Virus record (IMG/VR): IMGVR_UViG_3300003885_000017
Coordinates: 1 to 38,710 of that record
Length of the DNA: 38,710 nt
Source of the DNA: a virus
Strand: one strand, 5' to 3'
The translations under genes and the position numbers were made by a program. The notes under the pieces are model-generated. The model worked only from the letters and a program-made list of their open reading frames with translations. It had not been told where the DNA came from and ran no database searches. Below, one piece after another: positions 2,798 through 30,301 of the stretch. Position 1 is the first letter of the stretch, and every line of letters begins with the position of its first letter.

Positions 2798-3108
2798 ACG
2801 ACGACAACAATCCCAAGGGGTCGCCTCCACCTGAGTCGTCGCTTGATCCTGGGCACGGAGCTCAGCATGCGCCCGGCGTGTCTGGCGTGGTCGATCAGGA
2901 GATCTCGATCGTGATCACCGTGAAGGGCAATCAGCTTGAGGTGAACGGCCCGCTCCACGACACCATCTTCTGCTACGGCGTGCTCATGCGGGCGATGGAC
3001 GTGATCAGGACGATGCGTGACCAGCAGCAAAAAAAAGGCCCCCCAGGCGTCACGCCCGGAGGGCTGGTGATTCCGAGGGACGGGTTCAAGGTTCCGCGTC
3101 AGTCCTGA
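2794..3108 (+). CDS. Hypothetical protein co-transcribed with the HTH regulator
   Basis: 104 aa, starting in an ATGA overlap with the HTH gene. The first 38 residues are polar and Pro/Gly-rich; the central part (QEISIVITVKGNQLEVNGP, then a helix with MRAMDVIRTMRDQQQKKG) looks like a small alpha/beta domain. The family is not recognised. Its 3' third carries, on the opposite strand, the terminator of the leftward small-gene operon (3029-3064), so the KKGPPGVTPGG stretch is partly dictated by the terminator. Its last 23 bases overlap the 3' end of the convergent gene at 3086-3283. Confidence 0.7.
   Translation: MNDDNNPKGSPPPESSLDPGHGAQHAPGVSGVVDQEISIVITVKGNQLEVNGPLHDTIFCYGVLMRAMDVIRTMRDQQQKKGPPGVTPGGLVIPRDGFKVPRQS
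3029..3064 (-). terminator. Rho-independent terminator of the leftward early operon
   Basis: On the minus strand an 11-bp GC-rich stem (two G-U pairs) with loop GTGAC is followed directly by eight T. It lies just past the last leftward gene (ends at 3086) and inside the coding sequence of the opposing gene 2794-3108. Confidence 0.85.
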
Positions 3109-3283
3109 GCATCCCTCGCGAGGGCGAGACCAGCACAGGCTCATCGCGCGGCTCTCTTTGTGGGGTTCGGAGCGCGCCCGACCTTTCCAGCGCCCGGACG
3201 AGATCTGAGTTCGAGGCGTAGGTCTCGCGGGTGTGCTCGAGCTCTTCGTGGGGTCGCTCGTCGTTCTCTGTGATGAGCCTCAT
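3086..3283 (-). CDS. Small hypothetical protein
   Basis: 65 aa, polar and charged (MRLITENDERPHEELEH at the N-terminus). ATG 3283 follows GGAG at a good distance and overlaps the stop of the previous leftward gene (ATGA). It is the last gene before the terminator at 3029-3064. No family is recognised. It is supported by ribosome-binding site, coupling and orientation rather than homology. Confidence 0.6.
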   Translation of the reverse strand: MRLITENDERPHEELEHTRETYASNSDLVRALERSGALRTPQREPRDEPVLVSPSRGMLRTDAEP

Positions 3284-3432
3284 TCTTTTTCTCCACCCAA
3301 GACGTTCTTGACGTAGGCCTGAAGTGCGTCCCAGACTTGTGGCTCCAGGAAGATGGTGTCGTTTTCGGTGGTGAGCTTCACCATAAAGCCGTCGAAGTCT
3401 GCGTAGACGCCATCCCCGAGGTACGTCTTCAT
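3280..3432 (-). CDS. Small conserved phage protein (YLGDGVYADFDGF type)
   Basis: 50 aa: KTYLGDGVYADFDGF, then MVKLTTEND and IFLEPQVWDALQAYVKN. I recognise this as a small protein common in many phages, with pattern YLGDGVYA-x-(F/W)DG-n-LTTENG-n-I-x-LEP-x-V. Its function is unknown; the two-strand plus C-terminal helix layout suggests a compact single domain. It overlaps both neighbours by 4 bases (ATGA at each junction). It is too short for usual ORF-length cutoffs. Confidence 0.85.
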   Translation of the reverse strand: MKTYLGDGVYADFDGFMVKLTTENDTIFLEPQVWDALQAYVKNVLGGEKE

Positions 3433-3671
3433 CGCTCGACCTCTTTCTCCGGCCAACTGGAGTCGATCTCTGTGGCCTGTGCGTGGAGCACGTCGATCTG
3501 TGCGACGAGTCGGATGACGACTCCGTCCAACGCGACTCGAACCTGTCCGTCGGGCATCGACTTCACCAGGTGCTTCAGGCGCTCGCTCGTCGCCCGGACA
3601 TCGTGTGCGACGGCGAGGAGGGCTTCGTCCAGCAGGATCTTGAGCCCTTGCGTCGTGTCGTTCGGCTTCAT
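3429..3671 (-). CDS. Hypothetical helical protein
   Basis: 80 aa from ATG 3671, which follows GGGAGGAAGAG. The sequence is almost wholly helix-forming (LKILLDEALLAVAHDVRATS and DGVVIRLVAQIDVLHAQA) with no Cys or membrane segment. Family unknown. It overlaps the lipobox gene upstream and the YLGDGVYA gene downstream, as part of the ten-gene leftward operon. Confidence 0.7.
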   Translation of the reverse strand: MKPNDTTQGLKILLDEALLAVAHDVRATSERLKHLVKSMPDGQVRVALDGVVIRLVAQIDVLHAQATEIDSSWPEKEVER

Positions 3672-3991
3672 TTCTCTTCCTCCCAGCATGGCGGGCAGGC
3701 GCGCCCGTCGTTCGCGCAGCACACGTCGCCGCAGGGGGTGGTGTGGCAGGGGCCGACCCTCGTCACGGGGGTCGACGCGCAGCCCGTGAGCAGTACGAAG
3801 GCGAGCAGGACTGCTCCAAGCTGGGCGACACGCGCCTCCCAGAGGTTCCCTTCGTCGATGCCCTCGTAGGCGTCTTCGCATCCACGGTGCAGGCCGAAGG
3901 GTTTGTCGCCCGGCTTCCAGAAGATGATCTCGACCTCGCGAGCGCGGATGACCTTGAGGCAGTGGGCGCAGCGGATGACGTAGTCACGCAT
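3668..3991 (-). CDS. Zinc-ribbon / internal lipobox protein
   Basis: 107 aa from ATG 3991 (GAGGAGG upstream). Residues 1-45 look like a small zinc ribbon: CAHC, later H-x-x-C in LHRGCEDAYEG. A hydrophobic segment follows, ending in a lipobox (LGAVLLAFVLLTGC, about residues 62-75), then a Cys-rich tail with CHTTPC, CCANDGRACPPC. A lipobox normally sits at the N-terminus; here it follows about 60 residues of likely cytoplasmic domain. Either it is a type II membrane protein cut at the lipobox, or a lipoprotein is made from an internal start (no in-frame ATG or GTG was found). The gene at 8280-8930 has the same architecture. Confidence 0.7.
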   Translation of the reverse strand: MRDYVIRCAHCLKVIRAREVEIIFWKPGDKPFGLHRGCEDAYEGIDEGNLWEARVAQLGAVLLAFVLLTGCASTPVTRVGPCHTTPCGDVCCANDGRACPPCWEEEK

Positions 3992-4155
3992 CAGTGCCCC
4001 CTCCTCTCTGGTTCGCCGTAGCGGTCGAGGGCCTCGCGACACTTCGTGCAGAGGTTCGCGCCACGGCACTTAGGGTCGTGGCAGACGAGATTGTCCTCGG
4101 TGGACTCGTCCACGCGGCGGTGGTACCCCAGGATCGAGTCGTAGTAGCGGGTCAT
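3991..4155 (-). CDS. Small zinc-finger-like protein
   Basis: 54 aa: MTRYYDSILGYHRRVDES, then a Cys cluster CHDPKCRGANLCTKC (25-39) that could bind one zinc ion, and a polar tail. Start and stop both overlap neighbours as TGATG. Function unknown; such minimal Cys clusters are common among early phage genes that target host machinery. Confidence 0.72.
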   Translation of the reverse strand: MTRYYDSILGYHRRVDESTEDNLVCHDPKCRGANLCTKCREALDRYGEPERRGH

Positions 4156-11086: not shown

Positions 11087-11310
11087 TCAGCGACTGGACG
11101 AAGCGAACATGGGAGAAGCTCCAGAACATGGGCTCCAACGAGCAGGCTTGGGAGATCCTTGAGAAAGCTGGAGCTGAGCTTGTGACCAGTGTCATCGAGC
11201 CGATTCAAGGCAGGCGCTTTAGGAACGAGGAGGCTCAAGGTGTTCCTGAGCGAGAGGCCGGCCCAGCTCCTAGCGAGAGCGGGCGTCGTTCATCGAGGGG
11301 GGTGGAGTGA
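11083..11310 (+). CDS. Small hypothetical protein, TTG start
   Basis: 75 aa. The TTG at 11083 overlaps the previous stop (TTGA) and follows GGGGAGA, so a TTG start fits better than any ATG. Helical N-terminus (DWTKRTWEKLQNMGS, EQAWEILEKAGAELV), charged disordered C-terminus. Function unknown. Overlaps the methyltransferase start (GTGA). Confidence 0.68.
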   Translation: MISDWTKRTWEKLQNMGSNEQAWEILEKAGAELVTSVIEPIQGRRFRNEEAQGVPEREAGPAPSESGRRSSRGVE

Positions 11311-12392
11311 TTGAAGTCCTCGACCTCTTCTCCGGCATCGGCGGTTTCAGTCTCGGGCTCGAAAGCACCGGAGGCTTCCGCACCATCGGGTTCTGCGAAA
11401 TCGAGCCCTTCCCTCGAGAAGTCCTCCGAAAGCATTGGCCCGGAGTTCCCATCTGGGAAGACATCCGAGAGCTCACAGCCGAGTCTCTGGGGGGATTGCA
11501 ACCCGACGCTATTGTCGGAGGATTCCCCTGCCAAGACATCAGCGTCGCCGGTAAAGGCGCAGGGCTCGACGGTGCGCGCTCCGGGCTTTGGTCCGAGTTC
11601 GCCCGGCTTGTGGTCGAGCTTAGACCCCGTTGGGTCATCGTTGAGAACGTCGGTGCTCTCAGAACTCGAGGGGTTGACCGGGTTTGCTCTGACCTGGAGG
11701 CCCAAGGCTACTCCGTCTGGCCGCTTCTGGTGGGTGCTTGGGCGGTCGGAGCCCCGCACAAACGGGACCGAGTCTGGATCGTGGCCCACCGCGACGGCGA
11801 AGGACGAAGCGAGCAGCGGAGCGGCAGCCTACTCGACGGAGAGCGGGCAGCATCCGGGCACGACCCTGACCGACGCGGCGAACGGCCTGTGGGCGACGGC
11901 CAGCGCAACGGACTACAAGGGCAGCGTTCAGGGCGAGACGTTGGAGGGTCGTCGCGGAATGGCTCGGGGAGTAAGGCTCCCCGAGCAGATCGCCAGGTTT
12001 GGCCCGCCCGCCCTGGAGAAGCGCAGTACGAGTGGGAAGAGCCCCGATTGGCCTACGCTGGACGTGGGAGCGGTGACGGGCGGCAGATCAGCGCGGGGCC
12101 AGAGCAAGCCGGGGCGTCAGTCAACGCTCGCGGCAACGGGGCAGAGGGGGACGCTCAACTCCCGGTGGGTGGCGCAGCTCATGGGCTACCCGAGCGACTG
12201 GCTCGACGTTGGAACCGAGAGGCTCTCAAAGCTCTGGGCAACAGCGTGGTCCCGCAAGTCGTCGCGACCATCGGGCGGGCGATCTTGAGCGTGGAGAACT
12301 GTGTGGAAGCAGGGAGTGCCGGTCCCCTGTCTGAAGCGAGGTCCGAATTAGAGAGCGGGCCTCGCAGCCGGCGTCGTGGAGGGAAGCCTTGA
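11307..12392 (+). CDS. DNA cytosine-C5 methyltransferase
   Basis: 361 aa, GTG start. All core motifs of C5-cytosine methylases are present: I DLFSGIGGFSLGLE (6-19), IV GGFPCQDIS (71-79, catalytic C75), VI VIVENVGALR (110-119), VIII APHKRDRVWIVAH (149-161), and X NREALKALGNSVVPQVVA near the C-terminus. Between VIII and X lies a very Gly/Arg/Ser-rich target-recognition region of about 150 residues. The enzyme probably methylates phage DNA against host restriction; no partner nuclease is adjacent. The same DNA also reads as a second recognisable protein (11512-12288) in another frame, which would explain the odd composition of the recognition region. Confidence 0.92.
   Translation: MIEVLDLFSGIGGFSLGLESTGGFRTIGFCEIEPFPREVLRKHWPGVPIWEDIRELTAESLGGLQPDAIVGGFPCQDISVAGKGAGLDGARSGLWSEFARLVVELRPRWVIVENVGALRTRGVDRVCSDLEAQGYSVWPLLVGAWAVGAPHKRDRVWIVAHRDGEGRSEQRSGSLLDGERAASGHDPDRRGERPVGDGQRNGLQGQRSGRDVGGSSRNGSGSKAPRADRQVWPARPGEAQYEWEEPRLAYAGRGSGDGRQISAGPEQAGASVNARGNGAEGDAQLPVGGAAHGLPERLARRWNREALKALGNSVVPQVVATIGRAILSVENCVEAGSAGPLSEARSELESGPRSRRRGGKP
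11512..12288 (+). CDS. Overlapping-frame protein of the WPT(A/P)-repeat family inside the methyltransferase gene
   Basis: 258 aa if TTG 11512 is the start; the frame is open from 11311. Its pattern is one I recognise from phages and prophages near or over C5 methylase genes: EDSPAKTSAS, then SLRTSVLS, LTWRPKATPSGRFW, PRTNGTESGSWPTATAKDE, a second LWATASATDYKG, LPEQIARFG, and a C-terminal LNSRWVAQLMGYPSDWLDV. It lies completely within the methyltransferase gene. No ATG and only a poor ribosome-binding site (GGGGGGA about 15 bases upstream) are visible, so translation could be by TTG start, coupling or frameshift. It could also be a conserved shadow of the methylase motifs. Function unknown. 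Confidence 0.5.
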   Translation: MSEDSPAKTSASPVKAQGSTVRAPGFGPSSPGLWSSLDPVGSSLRTSVLSELEGLTGFALTWRPKATPSGRFWWVLGRSEPRTNGTESGSWPTATAKDEASSGAAAYSTESGQHPGTTLTDAANGLWATASATDYKGSVQGETLEGRRGMARGVRLPEQIARFGPPALEKRSTSGKSPDWPTLDVGAVTGGRSARGQSKPGRQSTLAATGQRGTLNSRWVAQLMGYPSDWLDVGTERLSKLWATAWSRKSSRPSGGRS

Positions 12393-12595
12393 TCAAGATG
12401 CTCTTCGGGGTTGAAACCAGGCATCGGCGTCCAGGTCGGCTTCGGTGGCAGCCGTGGCGGATCAACGTCTACGACAACGTCACCGACTGCATCAAGTGGG
12501 CGCGTCTGAAGGCGAAGCGGGAGCAGGAGGGTCCGGGGTCTGCCGGGTGGGAGTTTCAGGCTCGCGTGGTGGCCTTTGACCGGAGGAAGCGATGA
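12389..12595 (+). CDS. Small hypothetical protein
   Basis: 68 aa with TTG start at 12389, 5 bases after GGAGGGAAG; ATG 12398 is the alternative. The sequence is basic: FGVETRHRRPGRLRWQPWRI, then DCIKWARLKAKREQEG and RVVAFDRRKR. Not recognised. Coupled to the next gene by ATGA. Confidence 0.65.
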   Translation: MIKMLFGVETRHRRPGRLRWQPWRINVYDNVTDCIKWARLKAKREQEGPGSAGWEFQARVVAFDRRKR

Positions 12596-16967: not shown

Positions 16968-17007
16968 GGGGACACAGGTGGCGTTGAAAAGGAGAGAGGC
17001 AGAACTT

Positions 17008-18784: not shown

Positions 18785-19378
18785 ATGCCTGCCAAGAGAC
18801 CCCGCCCAAAGAAGCCCACCGCCCGAAAGGGTAAAGCCCCAAAGAAGGGGCTCCTTCCCTCTCATGACCGGTTCGTCCGCGAGTACCTTGTCGATCTGAA
18901 CGGGCAGAGAGCCGCAGAGAGGGCCGGGTTCGCCCCCAGGACGGCACGGATCACGGCCTCGAAGCTTCTAACATTGCCTAACGTGAAGGTAGCGGTGGAG
19001 GCCGGCAAGGCCAAACGTGCGGCCAAGACCGACATCACTCAGGAGAAGGTGCTGGGGGAGCTCACCATCCTGGCCCACTCGAACGTGGACGACTACGCGA
19101 TGGATGAGAGCGGTCGCCTGGTGCCTGCTGAGGGTCGGGGCCCGGAGGTCATGCGGGCGGTGAGCTCGGTCAAGTACCGGACCAGGACCGTCGGAGCTGG
19201 CGAGAGCGCCCAGGTCGTCCGCGAGGTCGAGTTCAGGCTCTGGGACAAGCCGGGCACCCTGAAGCTCGAGGGTCGGCATGTCGGTCTCTTCCCGAACGAG
19301 GTGAAGCTCAGTGCCGGGCAGGAGACTCTCGCGGAGATCCTGAAGATGGCCCATGAGCTCAACTCCGCTCAGGGTTAG
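18785..19378 (+). CDS. terS: Terminase small subunit
   Basis: 197 aa. A Lys/Pro-rich N-terminal tail (PAKRPRPKKPTARKGKAPKK) precedes a Terminase_2-type domain: HDRFVREYLVDLNGQRAAER, AGFAPRTARITASKLLTLPN, VKVAVEAGKAKRAAKTDI, then VLGELTILAHSNVDDY. This part binds the packaging site by helix-turn-helix. The C-terminal half has the beta segments seen in longer members (EVEFRLWDKPGTLKLEGRHV). It recognises phage DNA and recruits the large subunit, whose gene overlaps by 26 bases. First gene of the late/virion region, directly after the TIGR array. Confidence 0.9.
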   Translation: MPAKRPRPKKPTARKGKAPKKGLLPSHDRFVREYLVDLNGQRAAERAGFAPRTARITASKLLTLPNVKVAVEAGKAKRAAKTDITQEKVLGELTILAHSNVDDYAMDESGRLVPAEGRGPEVMRAVSSVKYRTRTVGAGESAQVVREVEFRLWDKPGTLKLEGRHVGLFPNEVKLSAGQETLAEILKMAHELNSAQG

Positions 19379-20927
19379 CCCGGCGGCCAGAGCTCTCCAA
19401 GGCTTGGTCAAAGCCTGGAGATCGGATCCTGTCGGTTGCGTCGAGCAGTCCTTCGGGTCAGATCCCTGGGGCAACCCTGTCCATGTCGATCCTGCCCAGC
19501 GGGAGATCCTCGAAGCCGTCAGGGACAACGACGCCACGGTGGTCAGGACGGGCCGTGGCGTGGGGAAGACGGCTTCGGCTGCCATGCTCACTCACTGGTG
19601 GCTGGCCGCCTTCTGGCCTGCCCTGGTGGTGACCTCGGCCGGATCCTGGGCCCACCTCACGGACAAGCTCTGGCCTGAGATCAGGGCCTGGGGCAAGAAG
19701 TGGAAGTTCCGCGACGCCTTCGAGTACCAGCAGCTGGGGGTGTACAGCAATGCCGACCCTGAGATCTGGAAGGCGGTCGGCGTCTCGAGCGACAAGCCGG
19801 TGAACGTCGAGGGGTTCCACAACCCGAACTTCTTGTTGCTCATCGATGAGGCCAAGGGTATGCCCGACGAGATCTTCGCGGCGCTCCTGGCCTCGCTCTC
19901 AGGCGATGAGAAGTCGGGATCCCAGAAGGTCGTGGCGCTCTCGACGCCGCCGGCAGCTGATGCCGGCTGGTACGCCAAGGCTTGCTCGAGCGATCGATGG
20001 CACACGGTCCACGTCTCCGGTCTCGACAGTCCTCGCGTCTCGAAGGAGTACGTCGAGGACATTGCGGACACGTTTGGGGAGCAGAGCGCTGAGTACCAGG
20101 CCTACGTCCTGGGCAACATCCCTGAGGGGATCACCGGCCAACTGATCCGGGCGTCCTGGGTGAAGAAGGCCCAGACGTGGAAGAAGAAGGACCGACGCTA
20201 CCCGGTTGTGACGTGCGACGTGGCTCGGGGTGGTGAAGACCTCTGCGTGATCGGAGTCATCGAGCATGGGCTCTTCAACCTGGCCTTCGATGAGGATCGC
20301 GGGAAGTGGAGCTGGTGGGCCACGTCGGATCTCATGGAGGTGGTCAAGAACATTGGTCGAGCGGTGCTGAAGCACAAGGCTCGGGCGGTCTGCGTCGATG
20401 ACACTGGGCTCGGTGGTGGTGTCACCGACAGGTTGCGCGAGCTCCAGAGCGAGGGAGGCTTCCCGGCCAACTGCACGATCTGGCCGGTCAACTTCGGTGC
20501 GGCCCCCAGGAGGCCTGATCGGTTCTTCCTCCGCAAGGACGAGATCTGGTGGAGTGCGCGCGAGGCTCTTCGTGCTGACAAGATCGGCCTTCCCACCGAT
20601 GAGACGATTCAGTCGTGGCGTCTTCCTCGAGGCTCAGACTTCAAGGCGCAGCTGCTGGCGGTCATCTTCGAGAGCGACATGCGCGAGCGGGTTCGGGTCT
20701 TCGACAAGCGAGTGACGGGCAAGGAGGTCACGAAGGCGCTGCCTATCAAGAGTCCTGACTTGGCACACGCTCTCATTTTGGGGATAGACTATTACCAGAG
20801 GCAGGAGGAGCTTCCGGTGCCGACTGAGCCGCCCAAGACGCAGGAGGAGGCCCTTGCGAGGGTCTTGCAGCAGAGCGTTGCGGATCTCATGAAGACTAAG
20901 GTCGCTCGCACCCCATTCCAGAGGTGA
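19353..20927 (+). CDS. terL: Terminase large subunit
   Basis: 524 aa. ATPase: Walker A RTGRGVGKT (65-73), Walker B LLLIDEAKG (161-169), coupling motif VVALSTPP. Nuclease: TCDVARGGED (287-296, D289), CVDDTGLGGG (347-356) and the late acidic SPDLAHALILG. This is the motor that pumps DNA through the portal and cuts concatemers. Length and motif spacing are normal. Start ATG 19353 overlaps the small-subunit gene, so the two are coupled. Confidence 0.96.
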   Translation: MSSTPLRVSPAARALQGLVKAWRSDPVGCVEQSFGSDPWGNPVHVDPAQREILEAVRDNDATVVRTGRGVGKTASAAMLTHWWLAAFWPALVVTSAGSWAHLTDKLWPEIRAWGKKWKFRDAFEYQQLGVYSNADPEIWKAVGVSSDKPVNVEGFHNPNFLLLIDEAKGMPDEIFAALLASLSGDEKSGSQKVVALSTPPAADAGWYAKACSSDRWHTVHVSGLDSPRVSKEYVEDIADTFGEQSAEYQAYVLGNIPEGITGQLIRASWVKKAQTWKKKDRRYPVVTCDVARGGEDLCVIGVIEHGLFNLAFDEDRGKWSWWATSDLMEVVKNIGRAVLKHKARAVCVDDTGLGGGVTDRLRELQSEGGFPANCTIWPVNFGAAPRRPDRFFLRKDEIWWSAREALRADKIGLPTDETIQSWRLPRGSDFKAQLLAVIFESDMRERVRVFDKRVTGKEVTKALPIKSPDLAHALILGIDYYQRQEELPVPTEPPKTQEEALARVLQQSVADLMKTKVARTPFQR

Positions 20928-28990: not shown

Positions 28991-30301
28991 ATGGCTGCAA
29001 CAAGCACTAGCAATTTCGCGGGGCTCCTGGTCGAGACGTTCTCTCGCGACCGGGTGTTCGCTCCGTTCGAGCGATCGCTCGCGAAGTTCCATTCGGGAAC
29101 GCAGGATTGGGAAGACGAACCGCCGCTCGGTCGTGGCCGGACGTTTGGGATCCGCACAAAGGATGCCCACTCGACCGGTACGGTTTCCGAGGCTAGCGGG
29201 TCCACTCCCACCCTGCGACAGCCGGAAATCCTCCAGGCGAACGTCGATGCGATTCAGTGCGTCGGCGTGGCTGGTTGGACCGAACTGATGATGTCGGCAG
29301 GCCGGGGGCTCGGAAGCCTCGGTCCCGACGTGATCAGCGACCACATCGAGATGACCACCCGCAACGTGATGCAGCTGCTCAACCGCATGAGCCTGGGCCA
29401 CGGCACGGCGCGTATCGCTGCTGTCCAGGACACCACGGTGGCGAGCACCACGTTCATCGCTCGGAACCCCGAGCACGTTCTTCAGTTGCGCGACAACATG
29501 ACGCTCGACTTCTACAATCTGGACACCGGAGGCGCGAAGCAGGGCGCAACCGAGACCATCCAGGAGATCGACTTCGAGACGCGCACCGTGACGATCGGCA
29601 ACGCGCGGTCGCTGAACGCTGGCTGGGGAGTCTACCAGGCTCTCACGTCCGCGATCTCGACCTACGGCATCGCACCGTTCGGACTCCGTGCCTGGGCCGA
29701 CAACGGCGAGCTCACCTCGAGCATCGGCGGGATCACCAGGTCGGGGAACCCCGGCGTGAATGCCAACGTGCTGACGACCGCGACCGGCACCCAGCCGTAC
29801 TCCGAGAAGCTCATGCGGAAGGGCATCAACCGCATCTTCTTCGCGTGTGGCATGGAGCCGGACGAGGCGTGGACGAACAAGGGGATCATCTCCGAGCACC
29901 TCAACCACCTGGTCGGTGACCGTCGATTCACCCTCAACCCCGGCGAGAACGTTCCGAAGTACCGGATCGGCTACCGGGAAGAGGAGATCGGTTTCCAAAC
30001 GGGGGGCAGCTTCATCCCCTTCAAGTGTGAGGGTGACTTCGTGGACCGCGAGCTCATCTTCATCCGGAAGCCGATGTTCCGTCGGCATCAGCTCCGGGCC
30101 GTCAACTGGATCGGAGACGATTCCGGTGTGGACGGCACGGCTCGGGCAGTGCTGCTCCAGCTTCCCGCCAGTGGCGGAGGCTACGAGCTTTCCAAGATCG
30201 CGATCCTGCTCGGCATGACGAACTACGGCAACCGTATGCCGAAGTCGATCTGCCGGATCAGCAACATCGCGGACGAGGAGCTCGCGGGCGACACCGTCTA
30301 A
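28991..30301 (+). CDS. Major capsid (coat) protein
   Basis: 436 aa, strong GAGGAAGG before ATG 28991. Gene order (portal, scaffold, coat) and the sequence identify it: N-terminal arm MAATSTSNFAGLLVETFSR, a strand-helix region GWTELMMSAGRGLGSLGPDV, spine-like helix HIEMTTRNVMQLLNRMSLG, a beta-rich insert, and C-terminal GNRMPKSICRISNIAD. Compatible with an HK97-fold coat protein related in length to P22 gp5 (430 aa). The first 19 residues recur in the small gene at 24732-24989. A strong hairpin follows. Confidence 0.87.
   Translation: MAATSTSNFAGLLVETFSRDRVFAPFERSLAKFHSGTQDWEDEPPLGRGRTFGIRTKDAHSTGTVSEASGSTPTLRQPEILQANVDAIQCVGVAGWTELMMSAGRGLGSLGPDVISDHIEMTTRNVMQLLNRMSLGHGTARIAAVQDTTVASTTFIARNPEHVLQLRDNMTLDFYNLDTGGAKQGATETIQEIDFETRTVTIGNARSLNAGWGVYQALTSAISTYGIAPFGLRAWADNGELTSSIGGITRSGNPGVNANVLTTATGTQPYSEKLMRKGINRIFFACGMEPDEAWTNKGIISEHLNHLVGDRRFTLNPGENVPKYRIGYREEEIGFQTGGSFIPFKCEGDFVDRELIFIRKPMFRRHQLRAVNWIGDDSGVDGTARAVLLQLPASGGGYELSKIAILLGMTNYGNRMPKSICRISNIADEELAGDTV

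Follow-up and report, generated by a model that had tools for sequence, protein, structure and literature searches.

Does a phage gene for a C5 cytosine methyltransferase encode one protein or two? The question is raised by positions 11307–12392 of IMG/VR virus record IMGVR_UViG_3300003885_000017, a 38710-base virus record with phage genes that was analysed at its full length and is called the window here. An earlier note on this DNA had described two recognisable proteins in overlapping frames, the methyltransferase and a second protein in its +1 frame, and had left the choice between a dual-coding gene and a conserved shadow. We refer to the methyltransferase frame as alpha and to the +1 frame as beta; the features of the pair all lie on the + strand. 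From comparisons of sequences we could establish dual coding, selection on beta, the location of C5 motif IX in beta, an almost invariable coupling of the two frames, and the existence of fused and split relatives. The explanation that we consider very probable is that a single stretch of DNA yields one C5 cytosine methyltransferase in the form of two polypeptides, with beta as a nested recognition subunit. Both recognisable proteins thus survive analysis, though not as two unrelated ones: with C5 motif IX in beta, they are likely to be two parts of one enzyme.

Distribution of the methyltransferase motifs between the frames

Alpha has 361 amino acids, starting at a GTG at 11307 and ending with its stop at 12392. 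It matches the PHROG_363 profile over residues 2–337 (E 3e-78) and scores above the cut-off of TIGR00675; the Pfam DNA_methylase profile (PF00145) matches residues 3–166 only (E 6e-43). The motifs of the large domain appear in order, namely I (DLFSGIGG, 11322–11345, in which G9, G11 and G12 of alignment A4 are invariant), IV (GGFPCQDIS, 11517–11543, with the PCQ motif and the catalytic Cys), VI (ENV), VIII (APHKRDRVWIVA, 11751–11783) and X (KALGNSVVPQVVATI, 12231–12275). A complete single-chain C5 methyltransferase requires a recognition stretch and motif IX between motifs VIII and X, which alpha does not provide, and motif IX was not found in the translation of the alpha frame in the window. 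The earlier description of this frame as having all catalytic motifs must be corrected accordingly.

Beta is open from 11311 to 12288, which gives 325 codons, and matches the PHROG_1008 profile (E 3e-14); conversely, all 40 of the 40 aligned PHROG_1008 members match the beta family (best E 1e-74). The second frame does, as the earlier note recognised, belong to a known phage family, and the blocks quoted from it (EDSPAKTS, PSGRFW, SWPTATAKD and LMGYPSDW) are all present. Its conserved core begins at 11518, from where EDSPAKTSA is read across the DNA of alpha motif IV. The motif VIII codons for APHKRDRVWIVAH encode PRTNGTESGSWPT in the +1 frame, again as had been read, and the whole of motif VIII corresponds to PRTNGTESGSWP. 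The middle region (11784–12153) holds the WPT-type units SWPTATAKD, LWATASATD and DWPTLDVG; the second frame was correctly described as most ordered here, where the alpha frame is of low complexity. Among the loci counted, beta proteins mostly have one to five WPT units, with a maximum of seven. The motif IX block, LNSRWVAQLMGYPSDW, follows at 12154–12201, part of the same DNA encoding HGLPERLAR in alpha. The C-terminal part of beta contains motif IX (LNxxWVxxLMGYPxxW), both in the window and in most relatives, and by scoring, 174 of 230 distinct loci combine an alpha with motif X and a beta with motif IX.

Constraint on the overlapping frame

We compared the window and its relatives with synonymous codon shuffles in which the methyltransferase protein is kept. 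The 325-codon open run exceeds that expected from shuffles of the same gene (mean 196, p = 0.015), and the longest stop-free +1 run within the alpha open reading frame (ORF) has, across 88 loci, a median of 235 codons, versus 98 after shuffling. This run reaches p<0.05 in 89% of the 88 loci, versus 0–4.5% for the four other alternative frames. Against a family profile made from other loci only, the +1 translation of the window reaches 169.2 bits, above every one of 2000 shuffles (mean 78.6, standard deviation 9.9, maximum 118.3 bits). The shuffle mean implies that conservation of the methyltransferase protein alone accounts for about half of the score. For 140 unseen loci, which had no part in building the family profile, the +1 score was higher than all 20 synonymous shuffles in 139, and the shuffles retained a median of 57 of 174 bits.

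Another way to examine the overlap is through the phase of substitutions, given that position 1 of the alpha codon is the wobble position of beta. We used 28 independent pairs of relatives, each locus entering once, with the sequence preceding motif IV and that following motif X as internal controls. Before motif IV the shares of substitutions at alpha positions 1/2/3 are.21/.11/.68, and from motif X onward,.16/.10/.74. Between motifs VIII and IX they become.64/.22/.14, position 1 exceeding position 3 in 27 of the 28 pairs and the reverse occurring in none. The shares are.29/.13/.58 in motifs IV–VIII and.45/.19/.36 in the motif IX block. In motifs IV–VIII, where the N-terminal part of beta overlaps, the position-3 rate drops from.352 to.226, as expected where both frames are constrained. 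Two earlier phase counts, one with overlapping pairs and one small, agree with this result. The guanine-plus-cytosine content of the middle of the window (.82/.63/.65 by alpha codon position) is also highest at the beta wobble position. Between motifs VIII and IX the alpha frame is, by its substitution pattern, the shadow and the beta frame the constrained one, the reverse of what selection in the methyltransferase frame only would give.

Starts for beta show a corresponding asymmetry between frames. Shine-Dalgarno pairing of <= -5 kcal/mol occurs at beta-frame starts in 78% of loci, versus 23–26% in the other two frames, and beta-frame starts with such pairing are enriched 5' of the beta core, a pattern in the sequences that supports separate initiation of beta in the family. 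In the window, a purine-rich Shine-Dalgarno-like stretch, GAGGGGGG, is followed by GTG 11307 for alpha and TTG 11311 in the beta frame (together 11295–11313), and beta may share the ribosome-binding site of alpha. In Escherichia coli, AUGUG and GUGUG have been shown to initiate translation in different frames from their two neighbouring start codons (PMC9841429), which is only an analogy since the GTGATTG of the window differs from both.

Relatives and rival explanations

We compared 252 loci, the later ones retrieved mostly by beta queries rather than alpha queries. In 250 of them alpha lies one base back in frame from beta; the two exceptions are one alpha that is apparently frameshifted and one in-frame fusion. 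The search for a standalone second protein that the earlier note had proposed found no beta without alpha among the 252 loci, but in split actinophage forms beta runs on alone past the alpha stop: in Streptomyces phage Samy and mycobacteriophages Catdawg and Ulysses, alpha ends after motif VIII and beta carries motifs IX and X. In Gordonia phage Derg and locus L245, alpha and the C-terminal part of beta are joined in one ORF (the fusions recorded are L258 and L245). The combination that was to speak against the earlier note's second protein, no standalone homologues together with substitutions fitting selection in the methyltransferase frame only, is not what we found, given the split actinophage forms and the reversed substitution pattern.

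Three relatives (L059, L060 and L061) carry LNPDWVEWLMGYPxxWT in the frame of alpha, directly before motif X. Plant DRM methyltransferases have a motif IX similar to the C-terminal segment of L061 (E 0.005), and Pfam DNA_methylase spans residues 1–334 of L061, versus only 3–166 in alpha of the window. A structural model of L061 aligns end to end with M.HhaI over residues 1–339 (Z 27.2, root-mean-square deviation 2.3, 229 residues aligned), its middle (166–254) having a predicted local distance difference test score (pLDDT) under 50.

Could the methyltransferase be the sole protein, its sequence and codon usage forcing conservation on the +1 frame? Survival of about half of the +1 profile score through synonymous shuffling would agree with such a shadow, as would the near-absence of beta without alpha. 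However, neither the open run nor the surplus of profile score is reproduced by codon shuffles, the alpha frame has no motif IX, beta of the actinophages continues past the alpha stop, and the placing of VIII–IX substitutions on the beta wobble position already contradicts a shadow, which we regard as barely credible. Of the two options that had been left standing, dual coding holds and a shadow of the methyltransferase does not; in the middle region it is the methyltransferase frame that is the shadow. Programmed ribosomal frameshifting, in which the C-terminal part of beta would extend the N-terminal part of alpha into one chain from two frames, has in its favour that the middle of beta and motif IX are exactly the missing parts of alpha, and that in-frame fusions exist (L245, Derg). 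Motif X, however, is kept in the frame of alpha in most loci (174/230), so that a single shift would lose it, and conservation of the beta frame already spans motifs IV–VIII, with the paired beta-frame starts enriched upstream of the core. Frameshifting is, in our judgement, very unlikely, though no slippery site was searched for.

A separate protein with another job (such as anti-restriction or regulation), overprinted by chance, would account for the lack of any Pfam or NCBIfam match to beta and of a confident fold. We nevertheless think it improbable: the C-terminal block of beta is the C5 motif IX that alpha lacks, the coupling of beta to alpha holds in all but two of the 252 loci, and both the fusions and the split forms retain the order of a C5 methyltransferase.

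Several observations weigh against an enzyme of two chains with beta as its recognition subunit. Modelled alone with AlphaFold2, beta had a mean pLDDT of 54 and no confident fold, only the motif IX region coming near 80, and the beta profile had no meaningful match among solved structures; with no confident fold, the label "recognition domain" is drawn from position and from the logic of the family. In the window beta has neither an ATG nor a GTG start, its start being uncertain between TTG 11311, 4 bases past the alpha start, and TTG 11512 (11512–11514), 2 codons 5' of the EDSPAKTS block, where Shine-Dalgarno pairing is weak. Motif IX assignments are short sequence matches, and in L059–L061, L202 and L247 motif IX is in the frame of alpha with none in beta, so the division of labour varies. 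Substitutions between the window and L004 number 16/10/14 at alpha positions 1/2/3, and the phase evidence holds at the level of the family because the nearest relatives of the window are very distant. Translation of beta itself is inferred from sequence alone.

Proposed enzyme, known systems and minor observations

If one methyltransferase is indeed made as two chains, alpha (frame 0) would be the large domain, with S-adenosylmethionine (AdoMet) binding, the catalytic Cys, motifs I–VIII and, at its C-terminus, motif X. Beta would start within the alpha gene, possibly at its very beginning, and supply the small DNA-recognition part, comprising motif IX and, in the stretch expected to hold target recognition, a FSETWPRSGM-like block with one or several WPT units. 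Alpha would be translated across the DNA that encodes beta solely for the sake of motif X, and its residues there would be a linker under weak constraint. In a complex, the two chains would form one enzyme methylating cytosines in a short target, which beta would determine, and this methylation would presumably shield the phage genome from host restriction. It is tempting, if doubtful, to view the WPT units as interchangeable +1-frame target-recognition units, with which phages could switch targets via beta while alpha tolerates almost any sequence.

If such an arrangement is real, many phage enzymes listed as complete cytosine methyltransferases are probably half-enzymes whose apparent recognition region has been interpreted in the wrong frame. 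We read the +1 frame of two E. coli prophage copies; beta is open over 312 codons in one and 240 in the other and is annotated in neither, so that recoding the annotated gene for cloning would abolish its partner. The pair would also be an example from nature of a chain whose translation runs through the gene of another under little constraint of its own.

M.EcoHK31I, of a type that depends on both chains for methylation, has YGGCCR as its target. Its smaller chain is reportedly likewise encoded within the gene of the larger one in a different frame, which resembles the encoding of beta in the +1 frame inside alpha. In the part of PMC3404938 that concerns it (citing Lee, Kam and Shaw 1995), the larger chain has motifs I–VIII and X and the smaller chain motif IX; compared by this published description, the window pair is alike in having two chains, a large one with I–VIII and X, and motif IX in beta. 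In the same text the larger chain of M.EcoHK31I is the one predicted to hold the target recognition domain, whereas the VIII–IX recognition stretch of the window family evolves in the frame of beta. M.AquI is described there as two chains with the break in the variable region, which is like the split actinophage forms with IX and X in beta; the window pair differs in having X in alpha and a beta that overlaps motifs IV–VIII. PHROG_363 and PHROG_1008 are the families of alpha and beta, the latter bearing only the name "DNA methyltransferase". A limited literature search found no description of a nested methyltransferase pair in phages; two overlapping genes are already annotated here in the records of K1ind2, Tadhana and Bloom.

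Some relatives have features of their own. In L082 an alpha-frame stop at 3150–3152, just before the PCQ motif, divides alpha into ORFs at 2799–3149 and 3153–4091 while the beta frame is open throughout; the stop is either a sequencing error or a sign of a broken alpha. Alpha of Mycobacterium phage Llama (L253) is annotated as two "DNA methylase" genes, a frame change splitting both frames, and in the related Bubbles123 (L254) alpha and the +1 frame are intact. Five pair loci (L205, L206, L210, L212 and L213) lie in one uncultured Roseovarius chromosome record, OX638333.1, some of them ~46–47 kb apart, a pattern that points to repeated copies of a prophage or to an effect of the assembly. Lihuaxuella thermophila has the pair on three contigs (L178, L179 and L180) with identical match scores.

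Elsewhere in the window, the next listed ORF after alpha (12389–12595) opens with a TTG that overlaps the alpha stop TGA at 12389–12392. A terminase-like ORF lies at 19353–20927 and a major-head-like ORF at 28991–30301, and the ORF at 16978–18081 matches PHROG_4285, "transposase" (E 1.4e-22).
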